The notes below the pieces were generated by a model. That model was not told where the DNA came from. It worked only from the letters and a program-made list of their open reading frames with translations, and did not search any database. This document shows positions 23,575 through 29,730 of a stretch of 49,202 nt of DNA, in pieces. The stretch lies in contig DATKDW010000077.1 in NCBI GenBank assembly GCA_035512495.1, forward strand, positions 1-49,202, read 5' to 3'. A program made the translations under genes and the position numbers. Position 1 is the first letter of the stretch, and each line of letters starts with the position of its first letter. This DNA is from Acidimicrobiales bacterium. Lineage in GTDB: Bacteria; Actinomycetota; Acidimicrobiia; Acidimicrobiales; CADCSY01.

Positions 23575-23829
23575 ATGAGTCGTGAGATCACCCAGCGGGA
23601 GCTCCGCAACGAGAGCGGGAAGATCATGCGAGAGCTCGACAAGGGCGAGAGCTTCATCGTGACGCGCCGGGGCACCCCGGTCGGCGAGCTCAGTCCCCTG
23701 CGGCGTCATCGCTTCGTGCCGGCAGAGTCCGCCGTCGCGCTGTTCCGGTCTGCGCCAGCGGTGGACTACGAGCGCCTGCGCCGTGACCTCGACGAGATCG
23801 TCGAACAAGGCATCGCACCCCGTGGCTGA
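23575..23829 (+). CDS. Phd/YefM-family antitoxin
   Basis: The protein has 84 aa. The N-terminal DNA-binding part reads REITQRELRNESGKIMRELD, then GESFIVTRRGTPVGELSP, the classic Phd/YefM fold. The C-terminal helices (DYERLRRDLDEIVEQ) would bind and neutralise the toxin. ATG 23575 lies 7 bp after a TACTTT -10 box. The end overlaps the toxin start by 8 bp, coupling the two. Confidence 0.9.
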   Translation: MSREITQRELRNESGKIMRELDKGESFIVTRRGTPVGELSPLRRHRFVPAESAVALFRSAPAVDYERLRRDLDEIVEQGIAPRG

Positions 23830-24238
23830 GCATGCACGGCGCCACGCTCGAGGAGTCCTCGACACGTCGGTGTTGATCGATCTCGAGGACATCGACGCCG
23901 ATTCGCTGCCGGCAGAGGTCGCGGTGAGCTCGCTCACCATGGCAGAGCTGGCTGCTGGGCCACATGCGACGACTGACTCAGACGAACGGAGCCGGCGGCA
24001 AGATCGGCTGCAGCGAGCAGAAGCGGCCTTCGACCCCCTCCCGTTCGACAGCGGTGCCGCACGGGCGTACGGAAGAGTGTTCGCCGCGGTCACAGCCTCT
24101 GGCCGCAAGGCGCGAGGGACCCGGGCAGTCGACCTGCTGATCGCCGCAACGGCGGTGGCAGAGGGCATTCCCCTCTACACGCGGAACGGGCGGGACTTCG
24201 ATGCACTCGAGGACCTCCTCACCGTCGTCGTCGTGTAG
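23822..24238 (+). CDS. vapC: VapC-type PIN-domain ribonuclease toxin
   Basis: The protein has 138 aa. The PIN catalytic acids are visible: Asp14 (GVLDTSVLIDL), Glu42 (TMAELAAG), Asp104 (RAVDLLIAATA) and Asp125 (TRNGRDFD). Such toxins cut tRNA or rRNA when the antitoxin is degraded. GTG 23822 is read from within the end of the antitoxin gene. Confidence 0.92.
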   Translation: MAEHARRHARGVLDTSVLIDLEDIDADSLPAEVAVSSLTMAELAAGPHATTDSDERSRRQDRLQRAEAAFDPLPFDSGAARAYGRVFAAVTASGRKARGTRAVDLLIAATAVAEGIPLYTRNGRDFDALEDLLTVVVV

Positions 24239-25063: not shown

Positions 25064-25738
25064 ATGGGCTTCACGAGCATCGCCGTGGTGGTGGGCTTGG
25101 CCCTCGCGCTCGCCATGGGCGGGCGGCCCGCGAACGTGGCCGACCAGCGTCTCCGCTGGCTCCCGGCCCTCGTCGCCGGGGCCGCCCTCCAGCTGGGCGC
25201 CGAGGTGCTCGACCTCACCGACGCGCTCGCCATGGCCGTCGTCGCCGCGTCGTACCTCGCCCTTGGCGCCTTTGCGGTGGTCAACCTCCGTCTCGTCGGG
25301 ATGCCGGTGGTGCTTGTCGGCCTGGCCCTCAACGCCCTCGTGATCGGCGTCAATGGGGGGATGCCCGTGCGGGGCGATGCCATCCGGGCGATCCGGGACG
25401 TCGAGCCTGCCGAGCTGGCGGCCATCGACTTCGGCGCCAAGCGCCACCTCGAGGGCCCGGACGACCGCCTGACGGCCCTCGGCGACATCATCCCGGTGCC
25501 CCCCCTCGGCGAGGTCCTCTCGTTCGGCGACCTGGTGCTGGCCGTCGGGGTGACCAACGTGGTCTTCCGCCTCCTGCGGCCCCGGCGGGACGCTCCCGTC
25601 CTCCGCCAGCGACCCGGCCCGGGGCGTCCGGCGGGGCCCGTCGTGGTCCTGCCCGACCGCGGCCCCGCCCCCGCGACCCCGACCGGGGATGGACACGGGG
25701 GCGCCGACGACGGCATGCCCGTCGCCCCCGGCTCTTGA
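25064..25738 (+). CDS. DUF5317 membrane protein
   Basis: The protein has 224 aa. The N-terminus has four hydrophobic segments (IAVVVGLALALAMGG, WLPALVAGAALQLGAEVL, ALAMAVVAASYLALGAFAVVNL, MPVVLVGLALNALVIGVNGGMP); the NGGMPV turn followed by a soluble loop (ALGDIIPVPPLGEVLSFGDLVLA) is characteristic of DUF5317. The C-terminal ~50 residues are Arg/Pro-rich and probably cytoplasmic. The function is unknown. The family is common in actinobacteria and some Firmicutes. Confidence 0.8.
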   Translation: MGFTSIAVVVGLALALAMGGRPANVADQRLRWLPALVAGAALQLGAEVLDLTDALAMAVVAASYLALGAFAVVNLRLVGMPVVLVGLALNALVIGVNGGMPVRGDAIRAIRDVEPAELAAIDFGAKRHLEGPDDRLTALGDIIPVPPLGEVLSFGDLVLAVGVTNVVFRLLRPRRDAPVLRQRPGPGRPAGPVVVLPDRGPAPATPTGDGHGGADDGMPVAPGS

Positions 25739-25817
25739 CCCCGGCTTCTGACCGCCCGGCGCGGCCCGCTGGGCTGTTCGACCTTGTCACCAGGAACCAC
25801 AGGGGTTACCTTCTCTC

Positions 25818-25864
25818 CCACTGCCAACAGTGGCAACACCAAGTGGTGGGCAGACCGTTGGCAG
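25818..25864 (+). other. Mutually exclusive hairpins in the upstream leader region
   Basis: Stem A pairs CTGCCAAC (25821-25828) with GTTGGCAG (25857-25864) and encloses CACCA/TGGTG (25837-25848). Stem B pairs CCACTG (25818-25823) with CAGTGG (25828-25833). A and B share bases and cannot form together. It lies between the DUF5317 stop and the 29-codon ORF. No named riboswitch class was recognised. Confidence 0.45.
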
Positions 25865-25940
25865 CGGTCCCGAAATCCCCGGAGAGCTCCCTCAACAAGG
25901 TCTCATTCGGGCTGAAGGGACTGAAAGCACGCACGTTGAC

Positions 25941-26189
25941 AATCGAGTCGAGAAGGAGACGGCGAAAGCGCGCCATCCCATCACCAGCGGAGCGAAGCGT
26001 CACCCGCCACTAGCGGACGCGGGAAACCATTCGCAAGGGAGGTGATGTGACATGAAGAACGCACGCGTCCGTGCCGTGGCCATGCTGGCCGGCCTGGCGA
26101 CCCTGCTGCTCTCGAGCGGCGCCAACTTCCGCTGGAAGTAATCCAACGCTCAGCTGACGCGCTTTCGCCGCCTCTTTCCCGACCCGATC
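25941..26189. repeat. 34-bp imperfect inverted repeats enclosing a tiny ORF (MITE-like or RNA stem)
   Basis: Arms 25941-25974 and 26156-26189 match as reverse complements at 28 of 34 positions; all six differences are transitions. CACGTTG occurs directly at both outer sides (25932-25938 and 26190-26196), like a 7-bp target duplication, although the left copy is separated from the arm by AC. The segment holds the 29-codon ORF and its Shine-Dalgarno sequence. It may be a degenerate mini-transposon or a long-range RNA stem. Confidence 0.6.
26052..26141 (+). CDS. 29-aa exported-peptide-like small ORF
   Basis: The ORF encodes MKNARVRAVAMLAGLATLLL, then SSGANFRWK and TAA. The layout is a basic N-terminus, a hydrophobic core of about 14 residues and a short polar tail, like a signal peptide with almost no mature protein. 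A 9-nt perfect anti-SD match GGAGGTGAT (26038-26046) sits at ideal distance, striking in a window where most starts look leaderless. It is 88 bp upstream of the first HD-domain gene. If a signal peptidase cut after SGA, the pentapeptide NFRWK would be released; this is speculative. It could instead be a leader or regulatory ORF. Confidence 0.5.
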   Translation: MKNARVRAVAMLAGLATLLLSSGANFRWK

Positions 26190-26229
26190 CACGTTGCCGG
26201 GGACCCGCCCCAGGCGTCAGGAACTGCCC

Positions 26230-27573
26230 ATGAAACACCGGAGCGCGCTGCTGCAAGGGGCCGTCGTGCTCGCGGCCGCCTCCGCCCTGGTGGGGGCCCT
26301 GCGGCTCGACGGCGGGGTCGACTGGCCGATCGTGGCCGCGTTCGTCGCCTTCCTCATCATGGCCGAGAGCACCTCGGTGCTCATGGGCGTGGCCATGAGC
26401 GTCAGCCCGGGCTTCATGATCATCATGGCCTCGATCGCGGTCCTCGCCGCAGACGGACCGAGCGGTGCGGTCGCCGGCGCAGCCGTCATCGGTTGCAGCA
26501 GCGGCCTCGCCCTCGACGACCTGCGGTCCCGCAACCTGCGGGCCATCGTCATGAACAGCGGGCAGATCCTCCTGGCCGCCGCCGGCGGCGCGCTGGCCTA
26601 CGTCACCGTCCTCTCGCTGGGCGGCTGGGCCTTCGTCGCGGCCGTGGTCGCCGTGGCCGTCTACGGCTCGCTCAACATCGGGCTCCTCATCGGGCTCCGC
26701 TCGCTCAGCACGGGCCCCTCGGCGGCGGTGCTCTGGGCGGACATGCGCCCAGCGGTCCCCAACTACCTGGCCTTCGGCCTCCTCGGTGTCCTGATCGGCC
26801 AGATCGGCGCCGAGCTCGGCGCGGTGGCCGTCCTCCTCCTCGCCATCCCGGTCGTGATCGGCCGGTGGACCTTCCGGTCCTTCGAGCGGACCAGGGACGC
26901 CCACGACGCCTCGATCCGCCTCTTCATCCGCCTCATCGAGGCCAAGGACCCCTACACCGCGGGCCACACCGAGAGGGTCGCGAAGTACTCGTGCTACATC
27001 GCCGAGGAGATGGGACTCTCGCCCGACCGCATCGCCCACCTCCGCCAGTCGGCGCTGATGCACGACGTCGGCAAGCTGGCGGTCCCGAGTCGGCTGCTCA
27101 ACAAGCCCGGCCGCCTCACCGCCGACGAGTGGGAGATCGTCCGCCGTCACAACGACGCCGGCATCGGCATCCTCGGCCGAGTGAACTTCATGCGCGACAT
27201 GGCGGTGGTGGCCTCGGACCGCGCCGGACGCTTCGAGCACGACACCGCCGGCATGGCCGCCGAGCTGGTGCTCGAGGGCCACATCGTCGCCGTGGCCGAC
27301 GCCTTCGACGCCATGACCTCCACCCGTTCGTACCGTCAGGCGCTCGACCAGGACATCGCCTTCGAAGAGCTGCGCAAGAACGCAGGCACCCAGTTCAACC
27401 CCACCTGCACCGAAGCACTCATCGCGGTGATCGAGCAGCGGGGCGAGCGCTACGGCCGCGGCTTCGAGGTCGATGCCCACGCCTTCGCCGTCGCCCCGCC
27501 CGACGTCGGGGTCGGCTCGGCCGGCCTGGGTGACCTCTCCGACGAAGCGACCGCCGCGGGTTCGAGCTCGTGA
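26230..27573 (+). CDS. Membrane HD-domain protein with degenerate HD-GYP motif
   Basis: The protein has 447 aa. Residues 1-215 form about six membrane helices. The C-terminal domain is of HD-GYP type: AGHTERVA (His246), LMHDVGKLAVP (His278/Asp279/Lys282), LLNKPGRLTADEWEIVRRH (His307) and VADAFDAMTSTRSYR (Asp357). The canonical HHExxDGxGYP segment is replaced, without any length change, by a stretch starting ASDRAGRFEHD (about 328-338), so the HH pair and the GYP are lost. Cyclic di-GMP hydrolysis is therefore doubtful; it may bind a nucleotide or act by another reaction. ATG 26230 has no clear SD. The end overlaps the next gene (GTGA). Confidence 0.85.
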   Translation: MKHRSALLQGAVVLAAASALVGALRLDGGVDWPIVAAFVAFLIMAESTSVLMGVAMSVSPGFMIIMASIAVLAADGPSGAVAGAAVIGCSSGLALDDLRSRNLRAIVMNSGQILLAAAGGALAYVTVLSLGGWAFVAAVVAVAVYGSLNIGLLIGLRSLSTGPSAAVLWADMRPAVPNYLAFGLLGVLIGQIGAELGAVAVLLLAIPVVIGRWTFRSFERTRDAHDASIRLFIRLIEAKDPYTAGHTERVAKYSCYIAEEMGLSPDRIAHLRQSALMHDVGKLAVPSRLLNKPGRLTADEWEIVRRHNDAGIGILGRVNFMRDMAVVASDRAGRFEHDTAGMAAELVLEGHIVAVADAFDAMTSTRSYRQALDQDIAFEELRKNAGTQFNPTCTEALIAVIEQRGERYGRGFEVDAHAFAVAPPDVGVGSAGLGDLSDEATAAGSSS

Positions 27574-28859
27574 GCGCCCCCGACAGCGGCCGCCGGTTGA
27601 GCCCCGTGCTCGTCGCCGCCGTCGGCGTCACCGTCGGCGCCGCCATCGCTGCGACGGGACCCGACCGAGCGCGGGTGCTCGTGGGCGTCGCCGTGGCCCT
27701 CGGGGTCGGCCTGCTGGTGACCGTCCCCGTGCCCTGGGGGGGCAGCGTCCCGATTGGATTCGCCCTCGCCATGGCCGTACCCACCACGCCGCTCACCTTG
27801 CAGGAGCAAGGGATCGTGGCCGTGGCCGCCCTCACGATCGCCCTCGCCGTGACCGCCAACCGCCACGACCTCGCCGAGGTGGGCCGGGTGGGGTCGCGGC
27901 TGGCACTCGCGCTGCTCGCCGCCGGCGCCGCCGTGTTCGCGTTCGACCTGGTGGTGCCCGAGGCCACCGTGCTCGCCCGGGCCGGGGCCGGCATCCTCGG
28001 TCTCGTGGCCGTCGACGCCCTCGTCACCCGTTGGGTCCTGGTCGACGGCGAGCACCTCGAGCTCAAGTCGGCGGCCCCGGTCCACCTCACGTTGGCCTGT
28101 GCCGCCGCCCTCATCGCCGTGGCAACCGACCAGGTGGGCGTGGCCATGGCCGCGGTCGCCGGCCTGCCGCTGCTCATCGCTCGCTTCTCCTTCCTGCGCT
28201 ATGCCAGCGCCACCGACACCCTGGGCCAGACCGTGCAGGCGCTCGGTCTGGTACCGGAGCTGGCCGGGCTCTCCCCCCTCGGCCACAGCGAGCGAACCGC
28301 CTGCTACGCCGACGTCGTGGCCGGTGAGCTCGGGTTCGACCGGGCGACGAGGCAGCGGATCGTGACCGCCAGCCGGCTCCACCGGCTGGGAGCCGTGCCG
28401 CTCGACGACAGTACCGGCGAGGCCGTCCCGGCGACCGACGCCGCCGACGACCACACCACCGTGGCCGTCCAGGGCGCCAGCATCCTGCGCGACGTGGGCT
28501 TCACCAGCGAGGTCGCCGACCTGGTCGAGTCGGCCAAGGCCGGGTCCCTCGAGGGTCCGGCCCCGTCGCTGGAGGCCGCCGTCGTCCGGGTGGCGGTGGC
28601 CTTCGACATGGTGGTCGGCGACGACCCTGACCTCGCCGACCGGGGGCTGTCCCTGCTGACCGGCGTGGCCCGTGATGGCGCCACCCGACGGGCGACCGCC
28701 GCGCTGTTCCGGCTCATCGCCGACCGACCGGCGACCGTCACCGACGCCATCGCCGCCGGCGACCGCTTCCGCCAAGCTGCCAGCGGCCTCGACCTCGAGA
28801 GCCTCGTGGCCGGTGGGGGCGACATCCTCCCCTTCACCCGCCGGAAGAGCGCGCTCTGA
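27570..28859 (+). CDS. Second membrane HD-like protein, catalytic residues lost
   Basis: The protein has 429 aa and is a diverged paralogue of its upstream neighbour: about seven membrane segments to residue 205, then an HD-like domain. The first metal His is kept (LGHSERTACYADVV, His239), but HDxGK has become HRLGA (His271-Arg272), there is no GYP, and VADAFDAM has become VAVAFDMVV. It should be catalytically dead and could be a regulatory partner of the first HD protein. The GTG start overlaps the upstream stop (GTGA), implying equal, coupled expression. Confidence 0.8.
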   Translation: MSAPDSGRRLSPVLVAAVGVTVGAAIAATGPDRARVLVGVAVALGVGLLVTVPVPWGGSVPIGFALAMAVPTTPLTLQEQGIVAVAALTIALAVTANRHDLAEVGRVGSRLALALLAAGAAVFAFDLVVPEATVLARAGAGILGLVAVDALVTRWVLVDGEHLELKSAAPVHLTLACAAALIAVATDQVGVAMAAVAGLPLLIARFSFLRYASATDTLGQTVQALGLVPELAGLSPLGHSERTACYADVVAGELGFDRATRQRIVTASRLHRLGAVPLDDSTGEAVPATDAADDHTTVAVQGASILRDVGFTSEVADLVESAKAGSLEGPAPSLEAAVVRVAVAFDMVVGDDPDLADRGLSLLTGVARDGATRRATAALFRLIADRPATVTDAIAAGDRFRQAASGLDLESLVAGGGDILPFTRRKSAL

Positions 28860-28920
28860 GCGCCTCCCAGGTGCCCGACGGTCCCCGATCCCCGGCGGGC
28901 CGGTCGGTACGCTCGACCCG

Positions 28921-29730
28921 GTGAACGACCTCGACCTGCGCTCCGTCGAGCGCGAGCTGTGCCGCATCCCCGACGTGCGGGCGGCCCGCATCGTCGTGGG
29001 CCCCGACACCGAACCGGTGGAGGTCCACATCCTCGCCGTACCGGGCAAGCACGCCAAGCAGGTGGTACGCGACATCCAGTCGGTCGCCATGGCCAGCGTG
29101 GGCCTCGAGATCGATCACCGCATCGTGAGCGTCGTCCAGCTCGAGGACCCGGTGGTCGAGCCCCCCGCGTCGCCTGGCGCACCAGCGGCGCCCGCGTCCG
29201 CGGCCCAGGCACCCGAGGCCGTGGCAGTCTCCGCAGCGCCAGGACCCGCCCCGGTCCCACCAGCCGCCGACCCCGAGGGCGCAGCCTCCTCCAACGGCCG
29301 GGCCGAGGCGGCACCCACCTCGCCGCCTGCCGGGACGAACACCGGTGAGCGCCCCGTCGTCGAGAGCGTCCACCTGCTGCGGCGCGGCCCCCGCTGCAGC
29401 GCCGAGGTCGCCCTGCGCGCCGGCGAGGTCGAGGCCACCGGCACCGTCGAGGGGTCAGCCGCCGCCAGCGCAACCCTCCGCCTCGTCGCCGAGGCAACCC
29501 TCGACGCCCTCCGCCAGCTCGACGGCACGGCCGCCCAGGTGACGGTCGAGACCGCCACCGTCACCTCCTTCGGCGACCGGCCGGTGGCCATGGCCGTGCT
29601 GGTCCTGATGGTGCCGCCCTACGAGGAGCTCCTCACCGGCTCGGCGCCGGTGCGCAGCATGGGCGAGCACGAGGCGGTGGCCCGCGCCGTGCTCGACGCC
29701 ACCAACCGCCGGCTCCGCCCCCCGAGGTAG
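28921..29730 (+). CDS. Unrecognised two-domain cytoplasmic protein
   Basis: The protein has 269 aa. Domain 1 (about 1-75: LRSVERELCRIPDVRAARIV, then VHILAVPGKHAKQVVRDIQS) and domain 2 (about 145-265: VVESVHLLRRGPRCSAEVAL, then EEL and EHEAVARAVLDATNRRL) are both alpha/beta-like and joined by a 65-residue Ala/Pro/Ser linker. No signal peptide or membrane helix is present. GTG 28921 is exactly 7 bp after TACGCT (leaderless). I do not recognise a family; similarity of domain 2 to small regulatory ligand-binding folds is only an impression. It follows the HD pair at 61 bp and may belong to the same pathway. Confidence 0.7.
   Translation: MNDLDLRSVERELCRIPDVRAARIVVGPDTEPVEVHILAVPGKHAKQVVRDIQSVAMASVGLEIDHRIVSVVQLEDPVVEPPASPGAPAAPASAAQAPEAVAVSAAPGPAPVPPAADPEGAASSNGRAEAAPTSPPAGTNTGERPVVESVHLLRRGPRCSAEVALRAGEVEATGTVEGSAAASATLRLVAEATLDALRQLDGTAAQVTVETATVTSFGDRPVAMAVLVLMVPPYEELLTGSAPVRSMGEHEAVARAVLDATNRRLRPPR

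Follow-up and report, generated by a model that had tools for sequence, protein, structure and literature searches.

The window analysed here, that is the whole stretch of 49,202 nucleotides of contig DATKDW010000077.1 from an Acidimicrobiales bacterium, harbors a micro open reading frame (micro-ORF) enclosed by a structured RNA. It is followed by the genes of a transmembrane (TM) HD-GYP-type protein (TM-HD1), an overlapping paralogue (HD2) and a cytoplasmic protein (P4), and preceded by the gene of a DUF5317 membrane protein. Comparison of homologous loci indicates that the RNA, the micro-ORF, the TM-HD gene, P4 and DUF5317 form one cassette across Clostridia and Actinomycetota. The reading towards which we lean is that of a peptide-signalling cassette, in which the variable C-terminal tail of the micro-ORF product would be the signal, the sensor domain of TM-HD its receptor, cyclic-di-GMP the output and the RNA a gate for precursor translation. 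The initial annotation had proposed a four-gene signalling-type unit of micro-ORF, two HD genes and P4. Such a unit is real and its ligand option is favoured, but the HD pair as its core and the conservation of the NFRWK tail were not borne out. Moreover, the unit is larger than four genes, with the structured RNA and DUF5317 belonging to it as well.

The ligand-precursor option is favoured because the C-terminal tail of the peptide and the sensor domain of the receptor candidate diverge together. Three loci of one genus (L274, L276 and L277), whose P4 proteins are 87-94% identical, share about 97% identity in the RNA and the leader codons up to a break after codon 20; their tails read SYVVSR, FTKM and LKIPTQ, respectively. 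Compared over 20 kb, the loci are 79-83% identical upstream; in each of the three pairs this identity is lost at the leader/tail break and regained after about 4.6 kb. The divergent 4.6-kb block has the same boundaries in the three pairs and covers the tail, both HD genes (TM-HD1 and HD2) and the N-terminal portion of a regulator of about 1,100 amino acids. The regulator gene lies behind the HD genes and straddles the edge of the divergent cassette, with its N-terminal part inside and its C-terminal part outside; by eye the protein has a STAND/MalT appearance (L294 10638-14039, L295 11325-14630 and L296 11649-14948).

A Clostridia pair (L206 and L213) depicts the same junction independently. 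In RNA and leader the two share 94-98% of their DNA sequence, while DNA identity drops to 62-66% right after the leader, in the tail (GFFWW and GFYWL, respectively) and the first part of the sensor; for the final portion of the sensor domain and the HD domain, protein identity is 97-100%. No dip in the first sensor part is found between L190 and L191, which carry the same tail. Judged from sequence, this co-divergence has the pattern of peptide-receptor specificity alleles: as would be expected of peptide pheromones, the tail and the sensor of the receptor change in concert between conserved flanks, the test over all pairs (see below) being weak. The break among congeners could also stem from chance horizontal replacement of an operon segment, devoid of any meaning for peptide-receptor specificity, and a sample of three alleles in one genus plus one Clostridia pair leaves room for this. 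However, the identical boundaries at the leader/tail junction in all three pairwise comparisons, the same junction in the Clostridia pair and the missing dip in the same-tail pair make such a replacement quite improbable.

The micro-ORF itself, initially annotated as a 29-codon signal-peptide-like ORF with a perfect 9-nt Shine-Dalgarno (SD) site, is found in the window with both features in place. Comparison of homologues points to coding conservation, with a synonymous divergence pS of 0.56 and a nonsynonymous divergence pN of 0.17 for peptide pairs of at least 60% amino-acid identity, a selection that biases pN towards low values. The leader is hydrophobic and ends in (G/A/S)-G-A in 66 of 69 distinct peptides; within these 66, position -2 is invariably G and position -1 is A in 63 and S in three. 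This leader end would appear to resemble a signal-peptidase I site. A tail of exactly five residues follows in 51/66, with W at +4 in 30/64 and F or W at +2 in 37/66. Entropy amounts to 2.5-3.4 bits at tail positions 1-5 and to 0-1.4 bits at the last five leader positions, so that the tail, of which an NFRWK-like form had been expected to be conserved, is the variable part of the peptide.

Length, hydrophobicity and N-terminal charge of the peptide would equally suit a bitopic microprotein, permanently inserted beside the sensor in the same cell as a small membrane subunit that tunes TM-HD. The strict adjacency of micro-ORF and TM-HD fits this as well, and the co-divergence with the sensor domain suits any physical partner. 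This reading, which together with that of a leader peptide (see below) is one of the two main rivals, is unlikely though by no means far-fetched, as a fixed short tail after a signal-peptidase-like end and its strong variability are more pheromone-like.

The cassette was traced by several routes. A pattern scan of species genomes, with AGCGRAGCG as part of the pattern, matched nine contigs of Clostridia type, metagenome-assembled genomes (MAGs) of Acidimicrobiia type and one complete genome, that of the cultured Actinobacteria bacterium IMCC26256 (CP011489); an ORF of 25-31 amino acids is present at each locus except L144 (an unplaced contig of the window's phylum), where it has 21. Pattern matches L125, L137, L138, L141 and L145 were discarded as chance. 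In L140, listed as Bifidobacterium breve but probably a mislabelled MAG, the element hardly differs from its counterparts in L129 and L142 (IMCC26256). Within 291 Clostridia genomes, the RNA model yields one match each in 31. In 29 Clostridia regions fetched by the RNA alone, an ORF of 25-34 amino acids lies at the end of the model, with P4 as the nearest gene before it and TM-HD as the nearest gene after it (29/29 for each), and DUF5317 directly follows TM-HD in 28/29. P4 occurs in 37 of the 291 genomes, namely in all 31 RNA-positive ones and in six more, in which P4 is likewise followed by an RNA of similar kind with a short ORF inside. RNA and micro-ORF right behind P4 were thus directly seen in 36/37; in the remaining genome (G488) the RNA match lies where the contig ends, and the ORF was not read.

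Around the window, 98 related genomes contain P4 in 11 cases and the element in nine, each of them P4-positive. The co-occurrence of micro-ORF and HD genes in other genomes, named initially as a check, is seen almost without exception: micro-ORF homologues lie directly upstream of TM-HD homologues in 36/291 Clostridia and in 9/98 window-related genomes, the window's included, which exceeds chance. Among 296 Actinomycetota genomes the P4 profile is matched by 59 at an E-value of 1e-10, a good part of these matches covering the LeuA-like C-terminal part only. Most of 20 Actinomycetota regions fetched display P4, the element and TM-HD1 together with a further HD gene that overlaps TM-HD1 or lies beside it, and DUF5317 is often there too; 16/20 yielded a short ORF of hydrophobic or related type, and one region (L290) has no HD gene.

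The unannotated RNA, which encloses the micro-ORF at about 25942-26188, became apparent by reading homologous loci side by side. It combines an AGCGRAGCG motif with a hairpin whose loop reads UAGCGGA, an SD site able to base-pair with sequence further upstream, the ORF, and two arms, 5' and 3', that are complementary to each other (Table 1). A covariance model trained on nine Clostridia elements only, in which the two modelled helices covary, matches the window at 25986-26059 with an E-value of 4.7e-5, IMCC26256 with an E-value of 7e-7 and several further Acidimicrobiia-type elements. For 46 matches, 94.2% of the helix cells are paired compared to 75.0% after shuffling, and 104 double-change cells stand against 21.9, a value reached by 0/500 shuffles; the alignment of the 46 sequences is fitted to the structure, which favours this result. 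The covarying helix P1 has the Clostridia topology, with its 5' side after AGCGRAGCG, whereas the SD-hiding helix of the window's clade follows another topology, was assigned by eye and is uncounted. Pairing of the long-range arms exceeds the 95th percentile of a cross-locus null, formed by arms from different loci, at 56/59 loci, and the top null value at 0/59; this top value may originate in close relatives paired together.

Even at lax thresholds, Rfam release 15 has no credible match over the element, be it in the window or in six relatives; no match to the proposed system was found in Rfam, Pfam or NCBIfam, and viral contigs of IMG/VR do not match the element pattern. A mobile element was rejected because the element occupies one site per genome in a fixed operon and undergoes compensatory changes. 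GEMM-type riboswitch and CsrA-site readings were considered and dropped; the GGA within AGCGRAGCG is not invariant.

Hok-like mRNAs are paired 5'-3', conceal their SD and encode a small hydrophobic peptide. By analogy, a hydrophobic peptide of 25-31 residues, a sequestered SD and long-range 5'-3' pairing may suggest a type I toxin-antitoxin-like small toxin with a folded mRNA. In contrast to Hok-like systems each genome has a single chromosomal copy of the element, set in a fixed operon beside signalling genes, and no antisense RNA was seen, although no search aimed at it was made; a toxin is highly improbable.

The HD-GYP metal-ligand motif H..HD..H..HH..D plus GYP (PMC8177086) is complete in all 42 distinct Clostridia TM-HD1 proteins, each encoded by the single HD gene of the 42 distinct loci readable there. 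The window TM-HD1 has six hydrophobic segments and matches Pfam HD_5 (E-value 2.9e-23), yet only H, HD, K, H and the final D are still there. In place of HH..DGxGYP it reads SDRAGRFEHDTAGMA, in line with the initial description of an HD-GYP-type membrane protein devoid of HH and GYP. Its paralogue HD2, which overlaps by GTGA at 27570-27573, has the HD pair replaced by H-R ('RLHRLG'), as had likewise been read, and no Pfam match. HH is also missing from TM-HD1 itself in G006, G007, G154, L140 and L142, and the second HD copies of Actinomycetota have lost parts of the HD-GYP set.

The second, decaying copy is an addition of the Actinomycetota. Therefore the refuting case named in the initial annotation, that most genomes have their HD genes unpaired, holds for the HD pair, which is not a core feature, and leaves the link between micro-ORF and HD gene untouched. 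Since TM-HD1 of the window lost HH and GYP and HD2 lost the HD pair, the two proteins more likely relay or bind than hydrolyse in this lineage.

The six-TM sensor has no Pfam domain above threshold. The same element and the same sensor domain are found in G018 and G024 with a longer C-terminus, which is GAF-GGDEF-EAL by Pfam in G018; the corresponding loci are L118 10814-13342 and, for G024, L114 on the reverse strand. In G077 and G048 element and sensor domain are present before the contig ends. G024 additionally contains, on contig C36 (L115 7310-8763), an HD-GYP gene and an HD2-like paralogue that lack the usual TM domain and lie away from the element, which is located on another contig with a different output.

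Several observations weigh against a peptide-signalling cassette. L193 and L196 have identical tails, and still their first sensor part differs, although the dip is milder. The correlation of tail and sensor, 0.78 among 43 close pairs, shrinks over all pairs to a weak partial value of 0.13 with the similarities of P4, HD and leader held fixed; these statistics point in the direction of co-divergence but are therefore not relied on. The draft genomes G040 and G057 contain P4 without a recognised element. The peptides of L144, L233 and L278 (MKKIAAVVERLLSTEASVSWR, MTFLTMILDLFTRTIASISWW and MKIIVAAVERMLSAEAVWAWEGR, respectively) lack the leader end. At L288, L289 and L293 an RNA-like stretch with AGCGRAGCG precedes TM-HD1, but the ORF is non-hydrophobic, which possibly reflects change or decay of the peptide. 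Finally, the output in the window is uncertain and the least certain part of the proposal, because the catalytic residues HH and GYP are gone from HD1. The three peptides of L144, L233 and L278 keep a W near the C-terminus.

The RNA-like stretches kept with non-hydrophobic ORFs would also be explained if the micro-ORF encoded a leader peptide without a job of its own, its translation and the RNA fold controlling TM-HD expression by attenuation or coupling. The position of the micro-ORF in the TM-HD leader, the paired SD and a terminator-like U-run after the 3' arm in several Clostridia are in line with this. On the other hand, the peptide leader is under purifying selection and conserved across phyla, co-divergence of tail and sensor is unexpected for a leader peptide, and the RNA arms lie outside the reading frame. 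Of the two roles offered initially for the micro-ORF, ligand precursor or leader, the simple leader role thus keeps standing as a rival, if an improbable one.

P4 had been described as an unrecognised cytoplasmic protein, and indeed it has no Pfam match above threshold in the window. Its AlphaFold2 (AF2) model is that of an alpha/beta protein with a predicted local distance difference test score (pLDDT) of 91.9. The C-terminal domain matches LiCMS (PDB code 3f6h) with a Z-score of 10.5 over 119 residues (root-mean-square deviation 3.7), above unrelated rows, and LeuA with a Foldseek E-value of 5e-6, while Pfam LeuA_dimer remains below its cut-off (17.4 versus 24.9 bits). According to the model, the C-terminus thus adopts the regulatory fold of LeuA/citramalate synthase; in contrast to these enzymes P4 contains no synthase domain. 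For the N-terminal domain fold matches are at noise level only. An RNA-binding P4 is conceivable in view of dsRBD- and uS5-like modules in the fold lists, but the LeuA-type fold scores better. The AF2 model of DUF5317 (pLDDT 80.7) corresponds to no known fold, with no Foldseek or VIA match, so that an intramembrane protease, considered for two conserved Asp residues, is likewise no more than conceivable.

We infer the following scheme for how the peptide is exported, processed and bound, for the output in the window and for what P4 and DUF5317 do. The micro-ORF would give rise to a membrane-directed precursor with a basic N-terminus, a hydrophobic leader, a signal-peptidase I-like end and a short variable tail. 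Released or exposed outside, this tail (NFRWK in the window) would be the cognate signal, perceived by TM-HD through its six-TM sensor domain; the HD-GYP domain on the cytoplasmic side (GAF-GGDEF-EAL in some relatives) would convert it into a change of cyclic-di-GMP; such an output is proposed where HD-GYP is intact. Translation of the precursor would be gated by the RNA, with one helix hiding the SD and the long stem enclosing the ORF, and its conserved single-stranded motifs resemble a putative ligand or protein binding site. P4 would be a conserved cytoplasmic partner, possibly a regulator of the RNA, and DUF5317 a conserved membrane partner, possibly involved in processing or export. Tail and receptor would be exchanged as alleles, RNA, leader, P4 and DUF5317 being the conserved parts for production and control.

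In order to relate the cassette to known systems, it was compared with agr, RRNPP/Phr and HD-GYP phosphodiesterases. In agr a small precursor, a membrane partner and a polytopic membrane receptor are encoded in one operon, and tail and sensor co-vary. The cassette resembles agr in all these elements, with the rest conserved. Unlike agr, it has no AgrD or AgrB family among the Pfam/NCBIfam matches, the presumed membrane partner being DUF5317; the receptor candidate carries HD-GYP or GAF-GGDEF-EAL instead of an AgrC-type histidine kinase, no cyclisation segment is seen and the precursor is embedded in a structured RNA. One article describes agr as conserved but polymorphic (PMC10482373).

With RRNPP/Phr the cassette has in common a signal-sequence-like precursor and a proposed short C-terminal signal. 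Phr_nterm and PhrK score below threshold on one Clostridia peptide (13.0 bits versus a cut-off of 25, E-value 0.11, and E-value 0.08, respectively). Contrary to these systems, the partner is a membrane HD/GGDEF protein and the P4 model is alpha/beta rather than a TPR-type repeat receptor; the neighbours P4, TM-HD and DUF5317 include no TPR-type cytoplasmic receptor. Clostridia TM-HD1 resembles HD-GYP cyclic-di-GMP phosphodiesterases in its full ligand set and GYP, and hydrolysis is predicted; it differs from them in the six-TM sensor, and TM-HD1 and HD2 of the window in their motif losses.

More tentatively, as a proposal that may well hold but is made with reserve, Clostridia and Actinomycetota might share a form of peptide communication with an RNA-gated precursor of 25-31 codons, a tail-reading polytopic receptor directly controlling cyclic-di-GMP and exchanged specificity alleles. 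If true, this would be a new peptide-signalling family in two large phyla that has no part families in common with agr, Com or RRNPP and ties extracellular peptides directly to cyclic-di-GMP enzymes. The RNA would be a conserved bacterial element that regulates the ORF it carries itself, and DUF5317, P4 and a micro-ORF family would be given a role. Among open-licence PMC papers none was found on the gene set, on a microprotein combined with HD-GYP or on DUF5317; an earlier description of the gene set elsewhere is possible.

Table 1. Features of the cassette in the window.
Feature	Positions	Strand	Remarks
DUF5317, polytopic membrane protein	25064-25738	+	Pfam PF17248, E-value 1.4e-21; cassette member, next gene upstream
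5' arm of long-range stem	25942-25975	+	30/34 positions pair with 26155-26188
CATCACC, proposed SD-sequestering helix P1 (Acidimicrobiia topology)	25979-25985	+	complementary to GGTGATG, 26041-26047; by eye
Conserved unpaired motif (AGCGRAGCG)	25986-25999	+	AGCGGAGCGAAGCG; columns invariant except R in two alignments
P2 hairpin CCCGC-CAC-UAGCGGA-C-GCGGG	26003-26023	+	conserved UAGCGGA loop; covaries in 46 sequences
SD site of micro-ORF	26038-26046	+	GGAGGTGAT; perfect 9-nt SD, read from sequence
Micro-ORF, 29-aa precursor	26052-26141	+	MKNARVRAVAMLAGLATLLLSSGANFRWK; leader MKNARVRAVAMLAGLATLLLSSGA, then variable tail NFRWK
3' arm of long-range stem	26155-26188	+	pairs with 25942-25975
TM-HD1	26230-27573	+	ATG start; six-TM sensor domain, HD-GYP-type domain; presumed receptor
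HD2, paralogue of TM-HD1	27570-28859	+	HD pair lost; Actinomycetota-lineage duplicate
P4, cytoplasmic protein	28921-29730	+	GTG start; N-terminal alpha-beta-beta-alpha-beta domain, C-terminal domain LeuA/citramalate-synthase-regulatory-like

Elsewhere in the window, an ORF at 23783-24238 on the forward strand, beginning with MTSTRSSNKASHPVAEHARRHARGVLDTSVLIDLEDIDADSLP, has the look of a PIN-domain (VapC-like) protein as judged by eye only.

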